Below are positions 28,241 to 52,627 of a DNA stretch of 64,000 bases, piece by piece. Under the pieces are notes generated by a model. That model saw only the letters and a program-made list of their open reading frames with translations, had not been told where the DNA came from and did not search any database. This stretch comes from Oscillospiraceae bacterium (GTDB taxonomy: Bacteria > Bacillota > Clostridia > Oscillospirales > Oscillospiraceae): contig JAGASJ010000087.1 in NCBI GenBank assembly GCA_017621795.1, positions 30,178 to 94,177 on the forward strand. Reading direction: 5' to 3'. Both the position numbers and the translations under genes were made by a program. Numbering within the stretch: position 1 is the stretch's first letter; each line of letters starts with the position of its first letter.

Positions 28241-28277
28241 AAGCACCTGTTGCTCATTAAATAAGCAACAGGTGCTT
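28241..28277 (-). terminator. Terminator after the RES gene
   Basis: AAGCACCTGTTGCT (28241-28254) and AGCAACAGGTGCTT (28264-28277) form a 14-bp stem. Read on the minus strand it is followed by a T-run (28240-28235), so it ends the defence operon. The remainder of 28066-28357 holds no gene I can support. Confidence 0.85.
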
Positions 28278-28357: not shown

Positions 28358-29365
28358 TTACACATTCTTTGTCCATTCTAAATCATTTATTTCAGATTTG
28401 AGCCTTGGGGTACCGATTTTATAAATCAGAGGATCATCCAATTTTAAATCAATTCCTTTTACTTCTACTAAATCTGAAGCAAAAGCGGAACAGTCTTCAG
28501 GATTAAAAAGAACGATATTTATTCCTTCTCTATGTAGAGAACTTCTAAATCTTAATCCGTCAAATCCCATGTTTTTAATTTCTTCGGCAATATACTGTGT
28601 GGGCAGATACTTTGTTGCATCACCGTTATACGGCTTTGAAAACATCTCTCCTATTGTGTTGTACAATCTCGGTAGTTCTACCACTTCATCATTCACTATG
28701 TCGTGGATATCTAAAGTTAAGTCGTATAGTTTAACATCCTTTGTCAATCTAAACCTTGCAACACTTACCGTATCACCTATAATTGGTCTTACTTCATATA
28801 CAGGGGTTACTGAATCTTCACTTAAATATAAGTATCGAATATGATCAGGATTTGCTCTCCCATTGCCGACAAGATCTGCTTTTGGAGCGCCTGAATCCTC
28901 AGCATTCCAGCCTTTGAATCTCACATTTTGTTTCCACTTCTTTTGTGCGTTAACAAGTTCCGGTGTTTCATCATAATCGTAATTACCATAAATCTCCGGC
29001 ATCAAAGAAAGAATCTTTTCCTCATCCGTCCATTCGTTAAGTATTTTTTCAATCTCAGATTTACTACATCCGTTCTCCTGCAAATAGTATTTTACAAGTT
29101 TGTTGAAATTGCTCTTTTCGAAAACACGGGCACGATATAAAACAACACCTTTTTTGAGGATCGTTACTGCGTTTTCTTTGCACTCGTAGATCTCATCTAT
29201 AACTGCATGCTTGACCGAAAAGCGATTTTTATAGATTAATTCTTCTTCGAAGTTCTTCCATTGCGAGTTCCTTTGTTTGATGTCTTCCATAAGCATTGCG
29301 AGCAGGAGAAACTTCCATTCATCGCTATTCATATGTTCAAAGTCCGTTTTTATATCTTTATCCAT
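28358..29365 (-). CDS. RES-domain protein (NAD+ phosphorylase / toxin family)
   Basis: A 335-residue protein whose C-terminal half is a RES domain: LYRAR (Arg-78/80), RYLYLSEDSVTPVYEVRP (Glu-191), and GFDGLRFRSSLH (Ser-275/276). Characterised RES toxins degrade NAD+ by phosphorolysis and arrest growth. The N-terminal 140 residues are an extra helical, acidic region as seen in longer, defence-linked RES proteins. No Xre/MbcA-type antitoxin gene lies beside it, unlike in the usual two-gene modules. It is the last gene of the restriction operon run, 35 bp after the ART-like gene, with AAAGGAG as ribosome site. NAD+ depletion after infection is inference. Confidence 0.8.
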   Translation of the reverse strand: MDKDIKTDFEHMNSDEWKFLLLAMLMEDIKQRNSQWKNFEEELIYKNRFSVKHAVIDEIYECKENAVTILKKGVVLYRARVFEKSNFNKLVKYYLQENGCSKSEIEKILNEWTDEEKILSLMPEIYGNYDYDETPELVNAQKKWKQNVRFKGWNAEDSGAPKADLVGNGRANPDHIRYLYLSEDSVTPVYEVRPIIGDTVSVARFRLTKDVKLYDLTLDIHDIVNDEVVELPRLYNTIGEMFSKPYNGDATKYLPTQYIAEEIKNMGFDGLRFRSSLHREGINIVLFNPEDCSAFASDLVEVKGIDLKLDDPLIYKIGTPRLKSEINDLEWTKNV

Positions 29366-29400
29366 CTTTTCTCCTTTTTACTGTTCACGCATGTATCTAA

Positions 29401-29961
29401 TTAGTAACAATCCCTATTTCGCTTATTCCATTTCAAATCGTATAACCAATTACGCTTAACCCTAACTATATATTCGTCCTCTTTCTTGTATTCCTCATAA
29501 AAGGACTCTCTAAAATAAGGCGTTGGACGATATGTGCCCTTTTTGATACATTCACTCAAAGGAAAGAAACTGCGTTCGTGCTCTATAGCATTTTCATCCT
29601 CAAACTGTAAATATTCTTCTGTATCACAAATTAGCAAATGTCCCGTATGATTCTCAGAAAATCTTTCGGCAGTGTATATCCTTCCGGTAAAACTTTGTAT
29701 CTCTCGATTGGAAAGACGTTGACAGGAACGAAATAGAACAGGTCTTTCTGGAGGCAAATATATTTTTAATACAAGATCCCACACATCGTAGTAAGCTTTC
29801 GTCTTCTCAGCGCCATCAGTCATCACCCAGTTACATATAAATGAAACGGACTCCTGTAATAGTGGAATATCTTCGGTCATGAAAGCCACAATGTTCTCTG
29901 CTATTTTCCTCTTATTTTTCGATCCTATTCTATACAAGAATTCCTTCGCCTCATTTCTCAT
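29401..29961 (-). CDS. Small protein, possible divergent ADP-ribosyltransferase fold
   Basis: A 186-residue protein of unknown function. The order of motifs resembles R-S-E ADP-ribosyltransferases: VLFRSCQ (Arg-78), IQSFTG (Ser-90/Thr-92), TAERFSE, and KKEDEYIVRV (Glu-161, Glu-163 as a possible E-x-E). I see this by eye only; it could be an unrelated fold. The first 70 residues are helical. It sits 35 bp downstream of hsdR and 35 bp upstream of the RES gene, with a weak ribosome site, so it is probably translated as part of the same message. Confidence 0.6.
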   Translation of the reverse strand: MRNEAKEFLYRIGSKNKRKIAENIVAFMTEDIPLLQESVSFICNWVMTDGAEKTKAYYDVWDLVLKIYLPPERPVLFRSCQRLSNREIQSFTGRIYTAERFSENHTGHLLICDTEEYLQFEDENAIEHERSFFPLSECIKKGTYRPTPYFRESFYEEYKKEDEYIVRVKRNWLYDLKWNKRNRDCY

Positions 29962-29996
29962 TCTTTTGTAAGAACATACTTTTTCAAGAAAAAATA

Positions 29997-32900
29997 TTAA
30001 TACTCATTATCCGTCCACATTTCACACTGGCTGATAACAGTCTCAATGGCATCTTCATACTGTTCCGGCGGATAATCGTACTTCTTTAGCAGACGCTTAA
30101 CCATCTTGCGCATCTTGGCACGTGCGGTCTCTTTCTTCTGCCAGTCAATCGTCCTGTTTTTACGAAGCAACTCGGTAAGCTCCTGAGTCATTTGCACAAG
30201 CACATCATTTTTGTAAAAATCTTTAATTGCTTGTGGCTTCGTCAAAGCATCGTAAAACGCAAGTTCTTCCTGTGTTAATCCTAGATCTTCGCCAGCTTTG
30301 TGAGCCTTTGCAATTTCCTCTGCTGCTGCCAAAAGTTCCTTAATGACTTCATCGTTGCTGATATGCCCATTGTAGTAAGCGTTCATAATACGGGCAATCA
30401 TTTCCGAGAACTTTTGTGATTGTACAACATTGGTTCGCTTATACAGGGAAACCTGTTCAGCAAGTAATTTCTTCAAAATCTCCACAGCAATATTCTTTTG
30501 TTTCATCTTGGAGATTTCTTCAAGAACATTGGCATCAAACAACGAGAAATGCTCACCCATCTTTCGACTGTCGAACAGGCTGATAACGCCTTCACTCTGG
30601 ACACTTGCCTTCAACAGTTCATTGATTTGTGCATTGATCTCTGTGAGGGACATAGGCTTTCCGCCGTTGCCGCCATAAGTAAGCTTTATAACGGTAGATC
30701 TCACCGCCTCAAAATAGGCAGCTTCTCGGCGTTCCTTATCCGTAGTCATACTGGAACAGAGCGACATTGCCTGCCGCATCAGCATCGATTCTTTAAGGTA
30801 CAAATCCTTTCGATCCTGCGCTTGCGCATCCAGCACAAAGTTTGCACCGTCCGTAATAGCTTGTGCCATTTCAAGTGCAGAGCCTTTGATAAACCCGCTG
30901 TAATCGAAACCGTGGAATAAATCACGGCATACCTGCAGTTTTTCCTGGAACTTGGGATATGCTGTCTTTGCAATATCCATATCACCGTATTTAGAACGGT
31001 CACGGGCGGTATACTCGTTCATTGCCGCTTTAAGTGCAGATGCAATGCCTACATAGTCAACGACAAGACCGCCTTCTTTGTCACCAAACACACGATTCAC
31101 ACGGGCAATTGCCTGCATCAAATTATATCCGTGCATAGGCTTGTACACATACATCGTAGCCATTGACGGAACGTCAAAACCGGTGAGCCACATATCGACA
31201 ACAATAGCGATTTTCATAGGATCATTATTGTCCTTGAATTTGCGGGCAAGTTCTTCTTTGTGGCGCTTAGTTCCAATTATTTCTTTCCAGTCCTCTGGAT
31301 CGTTGTTGCCGCTGGTCATAACGACACCCATCTTTTCTTTCCAATCGGGTCTCACCTCTAAAATGCGGCGGTAGATCTTCATTGCAATGGGGCGCGAATA
31401 GGCAACGATCATCGCCTTGCCAGTCAGGAGGTTTGCTCTTCCTGATTCGTAATGCTTGACGATATCATCCACCAGAGAGGTAATGGTAGAATCTGCACCA
31501 AGTACACTTTCCATTTGCCCAAGCATTTTCTTTGATTTTTCAATGGTAGTAGAATCGGCTTGTTGCTCTAATAAATCGTATGTAGAGTCAATAAGTTTCA
31601 GCGTATTTTCGTCTAACTTTAAGTGAACAACGCGGCTTTCGTAGTAAACAGGACGAGTTGCACCATCTTCAACCGCCTGCGTCATATCATAGATATCGAT
31701 GTATTCACCGAACACCTCACGGGTATTGCGATCCTTGGACGATACCGGAGTTCCTGTAAAGCCGATAAATGTGGCATTAGGCAAAGCGTCACGAATGATA
31801 CGAGCATTACCAACAACAATGCGCGCCTCGGTTTCGCCCTGCGCATTTTCGCTCATAACAACACGCTCATCCATACCGTACTGTCCGCGATGCGCTTCAT
31901 CAGCCATAACTACGATGTTGCGGCGGCTAGATAACGGTTCTTCGCTTTCCTCAAACTTAAACATGGTAGTGAAGATAATTCCGTTTGCCTCTCTACCGTC
32001 CAACAACTGTTTCAGATGCACCTTGCTTTCTGCCTGTACCGGTGTTTGCCGCAAGAACGAGGCACATTTAGAAAACTGGGAATAAAGCTGATCATCAAGA
32101 TCGATTCTGTCGGTCATAACAACAATAGTCGGACTATCTAGTGCATCTTGCAGTAAATGGGCATAGAACACCATAGACAGTGATTTGCCACTGCCTTGCG
32201 TATGCCAAAACACGCCGCCTTTACCATCGGTAACGGTAGCGATTTTCGCACGCTCAACCGCTTTGCGAACAGCAAAGTACTGATGATAGCCTGCTAATAT
32301 CTTAAATGCTTTTGCCTGTTCCACAGAGAAACAAATAAAATTCTTGATAATATCCAGTAGCTGTGCCTTGTCGAACATCCCCTCATAGAAGGTCTGAAAA
32401 TCTGCGAGGGTTACGGTTTCTGTTCCGTCTTTGGATTTCCATTCCATAAAACGATCAAGGCCAGAGGTGATCGTGCCTGCTTTGTTTGTAGTCAGATCAC
32501 TGATTACACAGATGGCGTTGTAATTGAAAATAGACGGGATATCCAGCATATAGTTGCGGATCTGATTATACGCATTCTCGGCATTAACCTCATCCTTTGA
32601 CGGACTTTTCAGTTCGCACAAAACCAAGGGTAAACCGTTTATAAACAGAATAATATCAGGACGGCGATTGTTGCCATTTTCTATGTAGGTAAATTGATTT
32701 ACAACATAAAAACTGTTGTTCTCAACGTTTTTGTAATCCACAAGGTAAACAAGAGAGTTTCTTTCTTCACCGGACACATAATATTTAACCGGCACACCAT
32801 TCTGCAGATAGTCCATAAATAGCATGTTCTTCTGCAACAGACTACCTGTATCAAAATCACGCAGCTTGGCTATCGCTTCTTGAATGGCATCTAGAGGCAA

Positions 32901-33056
32901 CCCCTTATTCAGTTTCACAAGACTATCCTGAAGGACAGCATCCAGCAGAGGGCTGGAATAATCACGCTCCATATCGGGCGCATAGATGTGGGTATAACCC
33001 ATCCTCTCGAACAGCTCAATAATAGCTTGCTCGTATAATTCTTCTGTGAAGTGCAT
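29997..33056 (-). CDS. hsdR: Type I restriction enzyme, R subunit
   Basis: A 1019-residue motor-nuclease subunit of normal length. Near residue 140 is the PD-(D/E)xK nuclease core (RPDIILFINGLPLVLCELK). The SF2 translocase follows with Walker A HTQGSGKS (about 285-292) and DEAH box (about 385), then QAIARVNRVF as motif VI. The C-terminal quarter is the helical domain that docks on HsdM. It cuts DNA lacking the modification made by HsdM/HsdS at 34.3-37.0 kb. It is separated from hsdS by two non-restriction genes, an unusual insertion. The ribosome site is AGGAGG. Confidence 0.95.
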   Translation of the reverse strand: MHFTEELYEQAIIELFERMGYTHIYAPDMERDYSSPLLDAVLQDSLVKLNKGLPLDAIQEAIAKLRDFDTGSLLQKNMLFMDYLQNGVPVKYYVSGEERNSLVYLVDYKNVENNSFYVVNQFTYIENGNNRRPDIILFINGLPLVLCELKSPSKDEVNAENAYNQIRNYMLDIPSIFNYNAICVISDLTTNKAGTITSGLDRFMEWKSKDGTETVTLADFQTFYEGMFDKAQLLDIIKNFICFSVEQAKAFKILAGYHQYFAVRKAVERAKIATVTDGKGGVFWHTQGSGKSLSMVFYAHLLQDALDSPTIVVMTDRIDLDDQLYSQFSKCASFLRQTPVQAESKVHLKQLLDGREANGIIFTTMFKFEESEEPLSSRRNIVVMADEAHRGQYGMDERVVMSENAQGETEARIVVGNARIIRDALPNATFIGFTGTPVSSKDRNTREVFGEYIDIYDMTQAVEDGATRPVYYESRVVHLKLDENTLKLIDSTYDLLEQQADSTTIEKSKKMLGQMESVLGADSTITSLVDDIVKHYESGRANLLTGKAMIVAYSRPIAMKIYRRILEVRPDWKEKMGVVMTSGNNDPEDWKEIIGTKRHKEELARKFKDNNDPMKIAIVVDMWLTGFDVPSMATMYVYKPMHGYNLMQAIARVNRVFGDKEGGLVVDYVGIASALKAAMNEYTARDRSKYGDMDIAKTAYPKFQEKLQVCRDLFHGFDYSGFIKGSALEMAQAITDGANFVLDAQAQDRKDLYLKESMLMRQAMSLCSSMTTDKERREAAYFEAVRSTVIKLTYGGNGGKPMSLTEINAQINELLKASVQSEGVISLFDSRKMGEHFSLFDANVLEEISKMKQKNIAVEILKKLLAEQVSLYKRTNVVQSQKFSEMIARIMNAYYNGHISNDEVIKELLAAAEEIAKAHKAGEDLGLTQEELAFYDALTKPQAIKDFYKNDVLVQMTQELTELLRKNRTIDWQKKETARAKMRKMVKRLLKKYDYPPEQYEDAIETVISQCEMWTDNEY

Positions 33057-33079
33057 ATTGGTGCCTCCTATAAAAGGTT

Positions 33080-33631
33080 TTACTTGTTCGTGAGAGTTAA
33101 CTCATTCCAAATTCTTTTGTGGTATTTATGAGCAAACTCGCTCATCGTATTGATATAGTCTTTTTTGCATTCTTTTATATTTTTATCGCCTATAATTGCC
33201 ATTAGCACCTTCCACAAGGAAGTATAGAGCTCGTGAACATCGTTTTCCAATATGCCAGGAAACAAAAACTCCATTTGATGCAGTGAGTGTTCAAATGTGT
33301 ATACTTTTTTTATGACAATTTTGAAATCAAGTTCTTCATACTTAAGTTCGTCAAAAAATAGCATACAGTCCTTGCGCATATCTTCTACAGTTTCACTTTT
33401 TTGCAAAGCTTTATTGAACGAAACACAACGTTCAAATAACTGAAAGACTTCATACCGCTTGTCGAACAATGCAATCTTGTTCTGCTCTTCGGCAATCTTC
33501 TTAGGAACTCTTATTGCGTAAAATAACGCGAAAGCAGAAATTAAAATTGTAATAATAGTCAATCCTAACTGTACATAATCAATCCAGCTAGGATTTCCTA
33601 ATTCTTCAATTGCTTTAATTAATTCTTCCAT
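33080..33631 (-). CDS. Single-pass membrane protein embedded in the restriction operon
   Basis: A 183-residue protein I do not recognise. One N-terminal membrane helix (residues about 18-43, YVQLGLTIITILISAFALFY) is followed by a long helical cytoplasmic region rich in Lys, Glu and aromatic residues. It lies 12 bp after the TIR gene and 23 bp before hsdR, with GGAG before ATG 33631, so TIR and membrane protein look like a pair. Small membrane effectors accompany TIR or nucleotide-signal proteins in several defence systems; a similar role here is inference. Confidence 0.65.
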   Translation of the reverse strand: MEELIKAIEELGNPSWIDYVQLGLTIITILISAFALFYAIRVPKKIAEEQNKIALFDKRYEVFQLFERCVSFNKALQKSETVEDMRKDCMLFFDELKYEELDFKIVIKKVYTFEHSLHQMEFLFPGILENDVHELYTSLWKVLMAIIGDKNIKECKKDYINTMSEFAHKYHKRIWNELTLTNK

Positions 33632-33643
33632 ACATTCTCCATA

Positions 33644-34321
33644 TTACAATTTTGACAAATCAATGGAATATCCGTTTTTCTGCATTTCCTTTGCAAGCGA
33701 AAGTTTGGCGTCTTCTACATTATCCTTAAAGGGTATGTATATAAGCCCATGTATATCCGAAGGAGATTCCATATCTTCTGCTTGTGATAATAGAATTGCT
33801 ACTTTTTCTCGTCCTTTTGAAGCAAGTAACATACCGAGTTCTAAAACTACATTTTGACGAACACGATATTTTTTATTGGCTTCATTATCTTTTGCATATC
33901 CGATATCATCGGGAGTGGCAAGAACTATACCGAAATCAGCCTGTGCAGTATATTCTTCCAATTTCTCAATAATAGTTGCACCTGCAGAAGGTAACTGATC
34001 TAGTATCAGAGGCTCTAAATCCCAACGACGGAGCATAGCTTCTAATTGTGTGCGCGCATATTTATTATGTCCGTATACAACAAACACTTTATTATTTTGA
34101 GGGGTAGTATTAGCAGATGTATTGCTAAATAATTGCTCTATAATATCTTTGTTTTTACCTTGACAATTTACGGTTCCTTTGTCCCAACAATTAATAACAC
34201 AACCATTTTCTAATTTTAAAACCGTTCCTAAATCATTTCCAGATCGTGTTTCGGAAGAAATCTTGAAATTTGATTTTTTTAAAATTGCTTTTGCATTTTC
34301 TAGTGTCATAATAATAGCCAT
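33644..34321 (-). CDS. TIR-like nucleotide-binding protein (CAP12/Pycsar TIR type)
   Basis: A 225-residue protein. Residues about 78-225 form the TIR-like domain found in Cap12/TIR-STING and Pycsar effectors: VFVVYGHNKYART, then DFGIVLATPDDIGY and RVRQNVVLELGMLL, where Glu-161 matches the catalytic Glu of NAD+-cleaving TIRs. The first 65 residues contain GCVINCWDKGTVNCQGKN, reminiscent of the TBP-like N-terminal domain of RNase HIII, so nucleic-acid sensing is conceivable. The gene sits 24 bp after hsdS with AAAGGGG before the ATG. NAD+ hydrolysis and abortive infection are inferred from the family, not shown. Confidence 0.8.
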   Translation of the reverse strand: MAIIMTLENAKAILKKSNFKISSETRSGNDLGTVLKLENGCVINCWDKGTVNCQGKNKDIIEQLFSNTSANTTPQNNKVFVVYGHNKYARTQLEAMLRRWDLEPLILDQLPSAGATIIEKLEEYTAQADFGIVLATPDDIGYAKDNEANKKYRVRQNVVLELGMLLASKGREKVAILLSQAEDMESPSDIHGLIYIPFKDNVEDAKLSLAKEMQKNGYSIDLSKL

Positions 34322-34345
34322 TTCATTATCCCCTTTATGTTTATT

Positions 34346-35473
34346 TTATATTTGAATGTCAGAGACATCAATCTCGCCGGACATGAGCCTCGGCAAGAGT
34401 GTATCCCTCAACTCAGCCAATTTTGCGGCTTCGCGGCTGTTCGCCTGCATTGCTTGATACATTGGAGCGACCACCGATTCGAACTCGGCAAGGCGCTCGG
34501 CAGGAGGAATGGCAAGTTCCAGTGCGTTAAGTATGTCAGTGGTCATGCTTGGCACAGCAGAACCGGCATTCATGGAAGCAAGATCCTTGGCCTTCACAAA
34601 ATGGAACACGAATTTTGCTACATTCGGAACCTTCATCTCGGTGTAGAACATGGTGTCAACTGACCAGAACGGCTCATTCACATACATGACATTGTTAAGC
34701 GTTCCTTTTCTGGGGATCAGAACGGATTCACCCGTGTACAAAGGACGCTCAACATAGCGCATAATGCCACCCGATCCGAACACGGGATACACACCGTCTG
34801 CTAACTTTTTGTGGTCTTTGCCATATTTGACAGTGATGAGGTCGGATAAATGTCCTTGCGTCCATGCAGGATCAGCATTGGTAATGAACATTGAGGCATA
34901 GATTGCCTGCGCCTGCTGCTGTAAATTATCGTTTATACGCTTGTTATTTTCTATTTTCCTATCGATTGAAACTAAAATGCTTGCAATTTTATCTTGTGTT
35001 GATCGTTCGCAAATTGGCACAGTTAGTTCACGAATAACTTTCATAGGAACAGTCATCTGTGTACTGCCGTGAGCATGGTTCAGCATTTGCTGTTTAAATT
35101 CATCGCTACGGATATAGAGAAACAGGTATTGTGGATTAATTTTTGAGATATCCGGAGCAATTTTGGCAACATTGGGTGCCAAGTGGTATCTATTATTTTC
35201 AGTTATTTGTGCCGTTTCTCCAATTGTGCCTGTGTAGGAGAGAACAATATCATTTACGTATAACTTGCTGCGTGTAAGACTGTCTGAAACGGATCGCTCA
35301 ATTCTTCGCACATCATCCAAAACCAAACTTCCATTTTTAAGATTAAGTGCACGAACCGTGATAATCTCTCCGTCCGGTATATACTCCATGTATTTTGTAA
35401 ACTCAAATCCTGCCAGTTTGGTAACATCTGCGATTTCGTCCATTCGAACTCGTTCTATCATACCTATCACCAT
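34346..35473 (-). CDS. hsdS: Type I restriction-modification specificity subunit
   Basis: A 375-residue subunit with two target-recognition domains (about 1-180 and 195-375). Each is followed by a conserved helical spacer: QDKIASILVSIDRKIENNKR in the middle and AKLAELRDTLLPRLMSGEI at the end. It determines which bipartite DNA sequence is methylated or cut. The start may be ATG 35473 or ATG 35461; neither has a strong ribosome site. There is one complete copy and no inverted partial copy, so no sign of phase-variable shuffling. The recognised site cannot be predicted here. Confidence 0.93.
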   Translation of the reverse strand: MVIGMIERVRMDEIADVTKLAGFEFTKYMEYIPDGEIITVRALNLKNGSLVLDDVRRIERSVSDSLTRSKLYVNDIVLSYTGTIGETAQITENNRYHLAPNVAKIAPDISKINPQYLFLYIRSDEFKQQMLNHAHGSTQMTVPMKVIRELTVPICERSTQDKIASILVSIDRKIENNKRINDNLQQQAQAIYASMFITNADPAWTQGHLSDLITVKYGKDHKKLADGVYPVFGSGGIMRYVERPLYTGESVLIPRKGTLNNVMYVNEPFWSVDTMFYTEMKVPNVAKFVFHFVKAKDLASMNAGSAVPSMTTDILNALELAIPPAERLAEFESVVAPMYQAMQANSREAAKLAELRDTLLPRLMSGEIDVSDIQI

Positions 35474-35505
35474 CCTATGTGTTGCATCTTTCCTATACTG
35501 GTTTT

Positions 35506-37011
35506 TTAGATATTATATCCCATCGCCCCCAGTTTCTGCTGGATTTCAGCTTCCAGCTTATGGGACTGGTCAAACAGTTCAGAGAGTTCGCCGGTCAATC
35601 GTGCCATTTTCTCTTCAAAGGGCTCACCGTCATCCTGCTGTTCCTCAATGCCGACATAACGACCGGGGGTGAGGATATAGTCTTGCTTTGCGATTTCTTC
35701 TGTAGTTACTACAGCACAGAAGCCCTTCTGATCCTCCAATGTGCCGTCAGCATAAGCATTATAGGTATCTGCAATTTTAGCAATATCCTCTTCGGTCAGT
35801 TCCCGCAGTTTCCGGCTAACCATAGTACCCATCTTCCGGGCATCAATGAACAGCGTCTTGCCCTTCTGCTTTTTGTTCTTTGCCAGGAACCAGAGAGAAA
35901 CTGGAATCTGGGTGGTATAGAACAGCTGGGTAGGCATTGCTACAATGCACTCCACCAGATCCGCATTGATGATATTTCTGCGTATTTCGCCCTCACCGCC
36001 AGACTGGGAGGAAAGGGAGCCGTTTGCCAGCACCATACCGATCTTACCGTTGGGTGCCAGGTGGTGGATCATGTGCTGCAGCCATGCAAAGTTGGCATTT
36101 CCTGCAGGAGGCATACCATACTTCCAACGCACATCATCCTTCAGTTTATCTGCGCCCCAATCAGAAAGATTGAAGGGCGGGTTTGCCATAATGAAATCGG
36201 CACGAAGTGTCGGGTGGCAATCGTTAAAGAAAGTATCTGCATTATAGCTGCCAAGGTTGGCTTCAATGCCACGAATGGCAAGGTTCATTTGAGCCATCTT
36301 CCATGTAGTCGGGTTAGAGTCCTGACCGAATACGGAAATGTCACTTAGATTACCAGCATGGTTTTCGATAAACTTCGCACTCTGTACGAACATACCGCCC
36401 GATCCACAGCAAGGATCATACACGCGGCCATTGTAGGGCTGTAGTACTTCGACCAACGTGCGTACCACACAGGCAGGTGTATAGAATTCACCCGCCAATT
36501 TACCTTCCTGCTCAGCAAATTTCGACAAGCAGTATTCATATGTTCTGCCCAGTATATCACGGCTAGAGCCTGCTTCTACCATCTTAATGTTCGTAAAGAG
36601 GTCAACCACATCGCCCAAACGGCGCTTGTCCAGTTCGGGACGAGCAAAATTCTTGGGAAGAATGTCTTTGAGTCGCTTGTTTTCCTTTTCAATTGCTCTC
36701 ATGGCATCGTCGATCACAGTACCGATCTCCGCGGTATGCGCCTTGGACGCAATAACGCTCCAACGAGCATTTTCGGGAACAAAGAAGATGCCTTCGGAAA
36801 TGTATTCGTCTACATCTTCTTCGAATCCGTCACCTTCAGCAACAAGTGCCTGATATTTTTCATCGAAACGATCGGATATATATTTGAGGAAAATCAATCC
36901 CAAAACGACGGATTTATATTCGGATGCGTCGATGTTACCGCGTAACACACATGCAGCATCCCATATTTGTTTTTCAAAGCCGATATCGGCTGTATTTACC
37001 TTATTAGCCAT
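35506..37011 (-). CDS. hsdM: Type I restriction-modification N6-adenine methyltransferase subunit
   Basis: A 501-residue methylase with the HsdM N-terminal helical domain and an AdoMet-binding domain. YDPCCGSGGMFVQS is motif I and IMANPPFNLSDW is the catalytic NPPF motif IV. Together with HsdS it modifies host DNA and forms the core on which HsdR assembles. It is the first gene of the minus-strand run hsdM-hsdS-TIR-membrane protein-hsdR-ART-like-RES. AAAGGAGC precedes ATG 37011. No clear promoter is visible between it and the 13-bp inverted repeat at 37063-37111. Confidence 0.95.
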   Translation of the reverse strand: MANKVNTADIGFEKQIWDAACVLRGNIDASEYKSVVLGLIFLKYISDRFDEKYQALVAEGDGFEEDVDEYISEGIFFVPENARWSVIASKAHTAEIGTVIDDAMRAIEKENKRLKDILPKNFARPELDKRRLGDVVDLFTNIKMVEAGSSRDILGRTYEYCLSKFAEQEGKLAGEFYTPACVVRTLVEVLQPYNGRVYDPCCGSGGMFVQSAKFIENHAGNLSDISVFGQDSNPTTWKMAQMNLAIRGIEANLGSYNADTFFNDCHPTLRADFIMANPPFNLSDWGADKLKDDVRWKYGMPPAGNANFAWLQHMIHHLAPNGKIGMVLANGSLSSQSGGEGEIRRNIINADLVECIVAMPTQLFYTTQIPVSLWFLAKNKKQKGKTLFIDARKMGTMVSRKLRELTEEDIAKIADTYNAYADGTLEDQKGFCAVVTTEEIAKQDYILTPGRYVGIEEQQDDGEPFEEKMARLTGELSELFDQSHKLEAEIQQKLGAMGYNI

Positions 37012-37062: not shown

Positions 37063-37111
37063 CCCAAAGTGTCAAATTGATACTGTGGAATCCCATAGTT
37101 GACACTTTGGG
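37063..37111. repeat. Perfect 13-bp inverted repeat at the hsdM upstream boundary
   Basis: CCCAAAGTGTCAA (37063-37075) and TTGACACTTTGGG (37099-37111) enclose 23 nt that contain a further imperfect dyad (ACTGTGG and CCATAGT). It lies directly after the stop of the DUF3990-partner gene (37115) and about 50 bp before hsdM. It may be an operator, a terminator without T-run, or an insertion scar. Confidence 0.7.
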
Positions 37112-37114
37112 ATT

Positions 37115-37531
37115 TTAATCTTCGTTTCGTTGGCGGTATATTTCTTTCAAATCCTCGATTGCTACCTCGGGGGCGAGGGTGTGGAAGATGAGCCAGTTGC
37201 GGTTCATGGTTTCGGCGGGGGCTTGTTTGTAGATTTCCTTGCTGTCCTCGCCGGTGGTAAAGTGCCAGAAGCGATACAGATAGCCGCTCCAATAGAGGGT
37301 CTCTCTATCAAACACGTTGCCGGTCTTGGTCAGCGCAACCGTCTCTGCCAGCTCGGCAAGGAGGTATTCTTCACCCGCCCACTGCATACGGTTAAACTTG
37401 GAATCCAGCCCCCTGGCAACCGGGGATGCCATAAACGCCTTGATAAAGGTGGCGCTGTCGTAACCCTTCTTGCCCGACAGTTCAAACAGTCTGCCCTGAA
37501 TATCACACAGTTTCAGTTCCAGTTCATTCAT
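37115..37531 (-). CDS. Partner protein of the HTH-DUF3990 gene (putative toxin-antitoxin component)
   Basis: A 138-residue, mostly helical protein I cannot place in a named family with certainty. I start it at ATG 37531, which overlaps the upstream gene by 8 bp and has GGAG 7 nt before it; the longer frame to 37600 lies inside the upstream gene. It contains SGKKGYDSATFIKAFMASPVA, a pattern reminiscent of small DUF3990-associated proteins. The overlap implies strict co-translation, as in toxin-antitoxin pairs. Which of the two neutralises the other is unknown. Confidence 0.65.
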   Translation of the reverse strand: MNELELKLCDIQGRLFELSGKKGYDSATFIKAFMASPVARGLDSKFNRMQWAGEEYLLAELAETVALTKTGNVFDRETLYWSGYLYRFWHFTTGEDSKEIYKQAPAETMNRNWLIFHTLAPEVAIEDLKEIYRQRNED

Positions 37532-38390
37532 ACTGCTTCTCCAAAATCTCATCAAAGAAGTTTCCTTCACGGCGGTAATTCTTGCAAATATCATTGGCAA
37601 GGGCGATGCCCTTTTGGCGGTTCCGGTCGCTTTCGTCCTGCAGGAAACGGCGTTCCATCATCGACAGCGGAATCTCCCGTTCAATACGGACAGCGGCGCA
37701 GGCCTTTTCTGTAGTCGCCACGTACTGTTTGCCCAGCTTCAGGGCGGACAGACTGTTCACCAGCGCCATATCCGTAATATTTCCCATAAAGAAATTATCC
37801 AGCACGTAAAACATTCTGTCGTTGGCGATACTGCCGATCACAAGATCCTTGCCGGCATCGATACGGCTGTACTTCTCATAGAAGGATGTGCCCGTGATCT
37901 TATCCATTCTACCTCTGTGGAAAGCAACCAGCATTGCCCAATCCAGGTCGGCCTTGATCTCCACGGCATCAAGTTCTTTTGCGTCAATAGACACAATGTA
38001 AAACTTGGACTTTTCAAAGTCGCAGATCAGCGTCAGCGGCTGGCCCGGCTCGGTGCCCATATAGAAGCCCCTGCCGAAGTCGCACATCTCACGGCTCTTG
38101 GGTGCAATATCTCCCACGATGCCGGACTTGGAGCCGTGGTACAGAAGGATCCGTCCATCCTCCAAGTTCACAGACGCGGCTTCGTTTGCGATTTTATCCA
38201 GTACGAACCTGCAGACCGGGACACTCTGCTCCTTGCAATAGTCGTACAGCTTCGCCTGAGCAAGCTTGGTGGGAATAGCCCTGCCGTTTTCCCAACGGTT
38301 GACTGTGGCAAAGTTCACGCCCAGCTTTTCCGCAAAGTCCGCCTGGCTTAGTCCCAGATAATCTCTTATAGACTTTATCAGCTTTTGCAT
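37524..38390 (-). CDS. XRE-type HTH fused to DUF3990 (ADP-ribosyltransferase-like) domain
   Basis: A 288-residue fusion. Residues 1-55 are an XRE helix-turn-helix (YLGLSQADFAEKLGVNFATV, NRWENG). From about 80 to 250 lies a DUF3990-like domain: LLYHGSKSG (His-85), FGRGFYMGT (Tyr-110), then a core like ART-fold proteins. It probably combines a DNA-binding autorepressor with a toxin-like enzyme in one chain. The ribosome site AAGGAGG is 7 nt from ATG 38390. A strong promoter with an 8-bp dyad around its -10 box lies upstream, fitting autoregulation (inference). Confidence 0.75.
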   Translation of the reverse strand: MQKLIKSIRDYLGLSQADFAEKLGVNFATVNRWENGRAIPTKLAQAKLYDYCKEQSVPVCRFVLDKIANEAASVNLEDGRILLYHGSKSGIVGDIAPKSREMCDFGRGFYMGTEPGQPLTLICDFEKSKFYIVSIDAKELDAVEIKADLDWAMLVAFHRGRMDKITGTSFYEKYSRIDAGKDLVIGSIANDRMFYVLDNFFMGNITDMALVNSLSALKLGKQYVATTEKACAAVRIEREIPLSMMERRFLQDESDRNRQKGIALANDICKNYRREGNFFDEILEKQYE

Positions 38391-38408: not shown

Positions 38409-38460
38409 ATATAACAAGTGTCATCATTTATATTATAGCCAATGTTATATGTTCCGTCAA
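38409..38460 (-). promoter_or_regulatory. Promoter and probable autoregulatory operator of the HTH-DUF3990 gene
   Basis: On the minus strand: TTGACG (38460-38455), a 17-bp spacer and perfect TATAAT (38437-38432). ATATAACA (38409-38416) and TGTTATAT (38443-38450) are perfect 8-bp arms on both sides of the -10 box, a good candidate binding site for the encoded HTH protein. Confidence 0.75.
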
Positions 38461-52394: not shown

Positions 52395-52627
52395 ATAAAG
52401 GCTGTGAACAAGAGAGTAAGCAGGCAGAAACGGTCAGAGAGCCTCGGTCGGTGCAAAGAGGTACGCAGGAAGCTTGCAGAAGATGGCTTGGGAGCTGAAA
52501 TGTCGATAGGTAGGCATTTTCGGGTGCGCCCGTGAACGCGCATAGAGGCACATTTTGTGCGAAACAAGGTGGTACCGCGTCAGTAGTCATTATTGTCGCC
52601 CTTGATTTTTATCAAGGGCGATTTTTT
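52395..52627 (+). promoter_or_regulatory. T-box riboswitch, methionine specific, with terminator
   Basis: The leader contains the T-box antiterminator sequence AAGGTGGTACCGCG (52566-52579) and an intrinsic terminator: TCGCCCTTGAT (52596-52606), loop TTTT, ATCAAGGGCGA (52611-52621), T-run. An ATG in GAAATG at 52500-52502 is the likely specifier codon; a second ATG at 52483 is less well placed. Uncharged tRNA-Met should stabilise the antiterminator and switch on metG. Confidence 0.92.

Follow-up and report, generated by a model that had tools for sequence, protein, structure and literature searches.

A type I restriction operon carrying a Cap12-type TIR protein and other accessory genes in an Oscillospiraceae bacterium: a possible second layer of defence

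The stretch of DNA analysed here (the window) comprises 64,000 nucleotides from a metagenome-assembled genome (MAG) of a gut Oscillospiraceae bacterium (contig JAGASJ010000087.1, positions 30,178 to 94,177). Its minus strand carries a type I restriction operon in which the subunit genes hsdM, hsdS and hsdR are all present, intact and adjacent, with two genes parting hsdS from hsdR: one for a protein with a TIR domain and one for a one-helix membrane protein, called MEM here. Behind hsdR follow an orphan gene, P186, and a gene for a RES-domain protein. Relatives of the TIR protein recur in type I operons, and related operons hold varied accessory genes in the same interval. The TIR protein is predicted to consume nicotinamide adenine dinucleotide (NAD+) and may form a second layer of defence behind restriction. 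The seven genes and the hairpin that follows them are:

35506..37011, minus strand: hsdM (PF02384, 2e-112; PF12161, 6e-28)
34346..35473, minus strand: hsdS (PF01420 in two stretches, 2.4e-23)
33644..34321, minus strand: TIR protein, a small N-terminal domain followed by a Cap12/Pycsar-type TIR domain with E161 (PF10137, 2e-35)
33080..33631, minus strand: MEM, one-helix membrane protein, an accessory gene of type I loci (no family match)
29997..33056, minus strand: hsdR (PF04313, PF18766, PF11867; TIGR00348, 3e-179)
29401..29961, minus strand: P186, a 186-residue orphan with no clear ribosome-binding site and one relative found
28358..29365, minus strand: RES-domain protein, predicted NAD+ phosphorylase (PF08808, 2.2e-16)
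28241..28277, minus strand: intrinsic terminator-like hairpin of 17 pairs with a T run, directly 3' of the RES gene

All seven open reading frames are uninterrupted, and the gaps between them, from hsdM to RES, measure 32, 24, 12, 23, 35 and 35 bp, matching the 12-35 bp of the original prediction; its naming of the hsdM, hsdS, hsdR, TIR and RES products is likewise borne out by Pfam and PADLOC matches. In a terminator scan, the minus strand holds a single terminator-like site (28277-28241, after RES) and none between the seven genes. Both strands together hold 8 such sites, against 9.0 in shuffled sequence, so that the support for the hairpin after RES is its 17-pair length. Good ribosome-binding sequences precede hsdM, hsdR and RES, and none is seen ahead of P186. 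A single transcript covering all seven genes is likely, judging from this arrangement. The G+C content of the genes is uneven: it is 0.48 in hsdM and 0.44 in both hsdS and hsdR, with 0.54 in two flanking genes, and falls to 0.34 in TIR, 0.33 in MEM, 0.37 in P186 and 0.36 in RES. The TIR and MEM cargo is thus AT-rich relative to the hsd genes.

The TIR protein has 225 residues, and its C-terminal domain is of the kind found in Cap12 and in the pyrimidine cyclase system for antiphage resistance (Pycsar). It matches the PADLOC candidate family PDC-S35 over nearly its full length (residues 5-225, 1.5e-96). E161 is present in all 79 aligned TIR rows, the window's row included, and aligns with the conserved glutamate of Cap12; because it is both invariant and aligned in this way, NAD+ hydrolysis is expected, and the protein is predicted to be an NAD+ hydrolase. 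An assignment to Pycsar or to the cyclic oligonucleotide-based antiphage signalling system (CBASS) does not follow, there being no cyclase among the matches listed for ten proteins of the region against PADLOC profiles. The N-terminal 70 residues show a conserved G-G-QG pattern. DUF3378, the nucleic-acid-binding N-terminal domain of RNase HIII, is matched weakly in 14 of 46 TIR rows (E values up to 1, the best 8.9e-6). The window's TIR protein itself has no such match; when ten N-terminal pieces were scanned alone, two matched, both under the cut-off and neither of them the window's, and a comparison set from 20 relatives was empty. A nucleic-acid trigger acting through a DUF3378-like N-terminal domain may be kept in mind as a lead.

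The original prediction had proposed asking how often relatives of the TIR and membrane proteins lie between hsdS and hsdR. For the TIR protein, genome contigs were scanned with a three-row alignment; 113 relatives were found and the best 80 kept, ranked by likeness to the query, which biases the share of type I loci toward the window's clade. Neighbours were assigned from gene calls and from profiles grown from the window's proteins, with match strength checked and 18 unclear neighbours tested against Pfam. Two loci in which no TIR gene was called (L040, with an in-frame stop, and L098, a short match) are kept in the denominator as not type I, two pairs of apparently identical contigs (L030/L012 and L078/L013) are each counted once, and contig ends hide neighbours at some loci. 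On this count the TIR gene is inside a type I operon at 21 of the 80 loci (L019, L021-L029, L056, L058, L063, L072, L078, L081, L082, L088, L091, L093 and L094). It occupies the hsdS-hsdR interval in nine of these, the hsdM-hsdS interval in seven and the hsdR-hsdM interval in one (L063); in three it follows hsdS and the stretch shows no hsdR, and in one it precedes hsdR at a contig end (L029). Three further loci are probably type I (L065, L066 and L096). Five adjoin either an N6_N4 methylase (L034, L069) or a DUF1156 protein, presumably methylase-linked (L033, L039, L061), and L079 resembles these five by motif and size only.

The HsdM proteins that accompany the TIR genes fall into six groups at 40% identity (18 of the 21 loci plus the window's; L024, L029 and L058 have an HsdM fragment or none). 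A quick TIR tree was built from 75 rows, 4 of the 79 being left out as shorter than 170 or longer than 270 residues. On it, 12 changes are required to account for the type I label (24 rows, with the window, L066 and L096 among them), against a shuffled mean of 20.3, and at least seven of the 12 are forced by starred branches. Among the 13 rows of the starred clade that holds the window's TIR protein, 11 are type I, the window included, and the type I members of this clade go with two distinct HsdM groups.

Two other arrangements were seen among these relatives. At two loci outside hsd operons that hold close relatives (L020:8106-10678 and L098:422-2746), a 384-residue protein directly precedes the TIR protein. 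In L020 it combines a helix-turn-helix with an IrrE-like peptidase (M78) and lies behind a DUF5986 gene; the L098 genes are similar by size only. This layout appears to be a different regulator-TIR module. Three contigs recorded under Sphingobium, Comamonas and Pandoraea (L041, L042 and L043) carry identical TIR proteins, which points to recent transfer or contamination.

The hsdS-hsdR interval was also surveyed from the side of hsdR, with no selection for TIR, in two partly overlapping sets: 200 genomes from the family and 197 from the order. Seventeen other genomes have an HsdR at least 60% identical to the window's, and the interval is readable in 13 of them (not in G020, G666, G712 and G609). 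Accessory genes are present in eight of the 13: two small genes in G086, a GmrSD-N protein in G074, a 500-residue protein in G125, MEM in G066, a 164-residue protein with MEM in G022, MEM with a Fic protein (PDC-S04) in G029, DUF3800 in G026, and a 216-residue protein with MEM in G617. The other five have no accessory gene (G033, G548, G554, G741 and G595, the last with an inverted hsdS piece only). Given such varied content in eight of 13 cases, the hsdS-hsdR interval is a cassette slot. At distant HsdR matches (33-35% identity), six intervals were read and four have extra genes, PDC-S49 and PDC-S32 among them; G266 and G722 were left out, and the hsdR of G755 lies at a contig start. Cargo also occurs behind hsdR, as Pycsar genes in G022 and as a CBASS cyclase and effector in G712. 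Together with the slot genes, this indicates that the window's hsd lineage carries exchangeable cargo in both places.

Two of the layouts behind hsdR can be described more closely. In L015 (1037-3817), PycTM and two PycC-like cyclases come directly behind the hsdR of a window-like operon. In L175 (2778-4612), the corresponding genes are a CBASS cyclase, a two-helix effector and a 145-residue gene, and over residues 102-1017 the HsdR shares 91% identity with that of the window. In a further set of loci, relatives of the window's operon (L022, L151, L153, L154, L159 and L179), inverted partial copies of hsdS accompany a gene that resembles a tyrosine recombinase by eye, and switching of specificity by inversion is likely there.

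Two MAGs found through their TIR genes can be compared with the window's operon. In L021, from water-deer colon, HsdM and HsdR are 92% and 89% identical to those of the window and TIR is present, with no match to MEM, P186 or RES. L019, from goat rectum, shares with the window a block of 968 bp at 93.4% identity, which takes in the final 70 bp of hsdS, the TIR gene and part of MEM. By contrast, DNA identity is 78.5% for hsdM, and the HsdS proteins are about 30% identical. From this shared block between diverged hsd genes, and from the low G+C content of TIR and MEM, we infer that the TIR-MEM block moved into or between hsd operons. Placing the boundary of the island was attempted through an empty-site check: in nine stretches from genus relatives, taken next to the M16 peptidase (two of them shorter than 4.5 kb, and two in which the peptidase gene itself was not called), no hsd or sigma-factor match was found, so that there is no shared gene order by which to place it.

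MEM, with 183 residues and one helix, has no meaningful match in Pfam, PADLOC, NCBIfam or PHROGs. Its relatives occur in seven other genomes, five times at type I or type I-like loci, and also in L019. Within the family they are found in four of 149 other genomes, all at type I loci, the divergent L018 being type I-like; two further genomes of the class have one (G332 and G200), in addition to the slot of G617. The relative in G332 adjoins Hachiman-like HamA/HamB genes (L104:7498-11689), and that in G200 has no recognised neighbour within 8 kb. None was found on plasmids, or in viral contigs by a pattern search. Since MEM and TIR are each found in type I operons without the other, they are separable, and MEM is probably an independent accessory of type I operons. 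The likeliest guess as to its role would be a membrane-acting effector or a tether.

P186 and RES form a separate tail. P186 has no meaningful match in Pfam, PADLOC, NCBIfam or PHROGs, and no relatives in sets of 149, 390 and 188 other genomes (partly overlapping), in phages or in viral contigs. One relative was found, at 41% identity (L099:4343-4876); it neighbours tet(X2) on a plasmid of Sphingobacterium, and the stretch viewed lists no RES gene. The original prediction had given P186 a possible ADP-ribosyltransferase fold, and this did not find support: there is no Pfam match and no match to a PDB sequence below E 0.6, and hhalign comparison with RES and DUF3990 proteins gave less than 1% probability, on a two-row profile. 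By eye, the pattern LFRS...TGRIYTA...EHERSFFP recalls the R-S-E motif of ADP-ribosyltransferases; its last part is absent from the plasmid relative. In the RES protein, R170, E191, S275 and S276 are invariant in five aligned rows, including the window's. No Xre-, MbcA- or ParS-type antitoxin is matched beside it, and the adjoining P186, in which neither a helix-turn-helix nor an antitoxin domain was matched, could be a candidate antitoxin by gene order.

A recurrent TIR-RES pair is rejected for this sample, as no RES match occurs at any of the 80 TIR loci. RES relatives are present in five other Clostridia genomes, and four of the neighbourhoods were viewed. Three of these show no hsd match; the fourth (L130) has an HsdR-like gene (1.3e-37) at a distance of 3.6 kb from RES, and a DpdB-like gene stands between them. 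Among 68 plasmid matches, eight were opened and showed no hsd match within 7 kb. In three of those eight (L205, L206 and L208, from Rhizobium, Shinella and Moraxella), the RES gene comes after sce7726 and sce7725 family genes in the same order, and L207 (NT-25) is laid out alike, with its genes named differently; these may constitute a three-gene RES system.

Upstream of hsdM, on the same strand, lie two further genes and two candidate signals:

38432..38460, minus strand: promoter-like site, TTGACG-17-TATAAT, ahead of the HTH-DUF3990 gene (consensus scan, 11/12)
37524..38390, minus strand: protein with a helix-turn-helix (HTH) and DUF3990 (PF13151, 2.5e-28; HTH_3, 1e-9; PDC-M13/M42A)
37115..37531, minus strand: partner of the HTH-DUF3990 gene (PDC-M42B, 7.6e-7)
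37063..37111, minus strand: 13-bp perfect inverted repeat CCCAAAGTGTCAA...TTGACACTTTGGG before hsdM (read from the sequence)

Between the two genes (37115-38390) and hsdM lie 103 bp, which contain the inverted repeat. The likely start of the partner gene is an ATG at 37531, its listed open reading frame beginning at 37600. The repeat region folds at -25.3 kcal/mol over a 95-base stretch and is a candidate operator or leader hairpin. The site at 38432..38460 is the best-scoring promoter-like site of the region, which has 29 in all, against 22.0 in shuffles (standard deviation 4.5), a slight excess; consensus matches are by themselves no evidence of function. The HTH-DUF3990 gene and its partner have a host-like G+C content of 0.51-0.53. 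In G548 a bare 69-residue HTH protein, matched by the window's HTH-DUF3990 protein, directly precedes hsdM. The pair are neighbours of the operon whose membership in the system is uncertain. Elsewhere in the window, a T-box leader is found on the plus strand at 52395-52606 (Rfam RF00230).

The explanation that best fits these results, held with about even confidence, is that of a type I operon whose slot takes swappable, largely defence-related genes, in which the TIR protein provides a second layer of NAD+-depleting abortive infection with a trigger of its own and P186-RES is separate, added cargo. The slot between hsdS and hsdR holds the Cap12-type TIR protein together with MEM. The TIR protein would stay dormant until phage infection, possibly sensed through its small N-terminal domain, and its activation would destroy NAD+, so that infected cells halt before the phage spreads. 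This second layer would be encoded with restriction and yet triggered separately, and RES, at the 3' end with P186, would be a second predicted NAD+ consumer. Such layered defence is reasonable in view of the conservation of E161, the repeated finding of TIR genes within type I operons, and the RES family's inclusion of NatT, for which NAD+ phosphorylase activity has been shown (PMC11535050). To that extent the original prediction, in which NAD+ depletion backs up restriction, is partly supported; its P186-RES part is seen in one MAG. The same division applies to its statement that occurrence of the extra genes in a single strain would refute it: TIR and MEM recur elsewhere, and P186-RES was seen only here, which makes that part weak.

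Several results weigh against this explanation. Fifty of the 80 TIR loci have no visible type I or other methylase-type neighbour, some of them being cut by contig ends, and the TIR protein thus seemingly needs none. None of the 13 readable intervals of window-like operons in the hsdR-first survey holds a TIR gene, and many of the slot genes lack a functional assignment. Weak promoter-like sites (9/12) at 34371-34343, before TIR, and at 29987-29960, before P186, speak against a single transcript. The P186-RES pair was found only in the window's MAG, and no other hsd operon viewed ends in it; what ties the tail to the hsd operon is therefore its co-directional spacing and the shared terminator, and a joint account of TIR and RES rests on one MAG.

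It may instead be that the Hsd complex, with MEM, silences the TIR protein, and that anti-restriction proteins or the loss of HsdR release it to deplete NAD+. The precedent is PrrC, an abortive-infection effector likewise embedded in a type I (type IC) operon, held by the type I enzyme and freed when phage T4 inhibits it (PMC3874165), and the concentration of the window's TIR clade in type I operons, with two distinct HsdM groups, is consistent with such an arrangement. However, for most TIR relatives the stretch shows no hsd gene, no region contacting Hsd was recognised, and the slot suits unrelated effectors. One of these, TgvAB, defends independently of HsdR cleavage (PMC11411939), and for this reason silencing by the Hsd complex ranks second and is considered unlikely. 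An extension with two chemically distinct NAD+-destroying stages, a TIR-MEM guard that fires on inhibition of Hsd and, beyond it, a RES phosphorylase kept in check by P186, is very doubtful; if true, it would be, in the literature searched, the first case of a RES enzyme shown in phage defence and of a TIR protein coupled to the condition of a type I complex.

That the slot merely tolerates insertions, its genes having no joint function, is quite unlikely. The unrelated slot genes, several with no known function, the five empty intervals and the restriction of P186-RES to this MAG would fit such hitch-hiking, but the TIR and RES residues are conserved, the type I operons with TIR span six HsdM groups, and some slot genes come from known or candidate defence families. 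The TIR, RES or HTH-DUF3990 genes could also maintain a mobile restriction operon through the death of cells from which it is lost. RES domains are mostly toxins of toxin-antitoxin systems (PMC11535050), P186 is placed where an antitoxin would be, the HTH-DUF3990 gene has a partner, and the base composition of the cargo is foreign. Yet P186 carries no known antitoxin domain and its single relative was found without RES, the HTH-DUF3990 gene is host-like in G+C content, and no antitoxin candidate common to the TIR loci was seen, although no systematic search was made; addiction of this sort seems very unlikely.

The layered, slot-encoded arrangement preferred here has several described counterparts. 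As in EcoprrI/PrrC, an extra gene is embedded in the hsd operon, but here it encodes a TIR protein rather than a tRNA anticodon nuclease, and no PrrC/RloC-type nuclease is matched by the embedded genes in Pfam, PADLOC or further profile libraries. Another embedded system, DarTG2, has an effector that uses NAD+. It sits between hsdS and hsdR in the RRDM island of enteropathogenic Escherichia coli (PMC12255303), an island that resembles the window in its order of small upstream regulator, hsdM, hsdS, effector, hsdR and further gene, and differs from it in having DarT/DarG where the window has TIR and a membrane protein. TgvAB, on Vibrio pathogenicity island 2 of V. cholerae, and RloF are likewise accessory defence genes between the hsd genes of a type I operon (PMC11411939). 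A GmrSD-N gene in the window-type slot of G074 parallels TgvAB, which restricts modified phage DNA and is not a TIR protein.

The TIR protein itself resembles the PDC-S35 and Cap12-type proteins in its nearly full-length profile match and retained glutamate, and the window's operon differs from Cap12 and Pycsar systems in that neither a CD-NTase nor a Pycsar cyclase is among the matches listed for it. Like MbcT and NatT of RES-Xre systems, the RES protein keeps the conserved R, E and S residues, unlike them having an orphan P186 in place of an Xre/ParS-type antitoxin match. As of 2024, no RES toxin-antitoxin system had been implicated in immunity, according to the paper cited for NatT (PMC11535050). 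The open-access literature searched yielded no description of a TIR protein within an hsd operon, no mention of PDC-S35 by name, and no system with both TIR and RES in a restriction operon. The original prediction's claim that no described system combines the two has to be narrowed, since slot effectors are described and the TIR protein belongs to a candidate family already defined. The PDC candidates stem from an approach called "guilt by embedding" (PMC12988326), and the occurrence of PDC-S35 in type I operons may already be in the preprint from which it comes (Payne et al. 2024).

PrrC, TgvAB/RloF and DarTG2 establish the embedded-effector kind, and the window's operon is not categorically new beside them. 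To this kind it brings a defined slot in one type I lineage where accessory genes, several from defence families, are swapped, a TIR family whose type I operons represent six HsdM groups, and a RES gene that is a candidate for a RES role in immunity.

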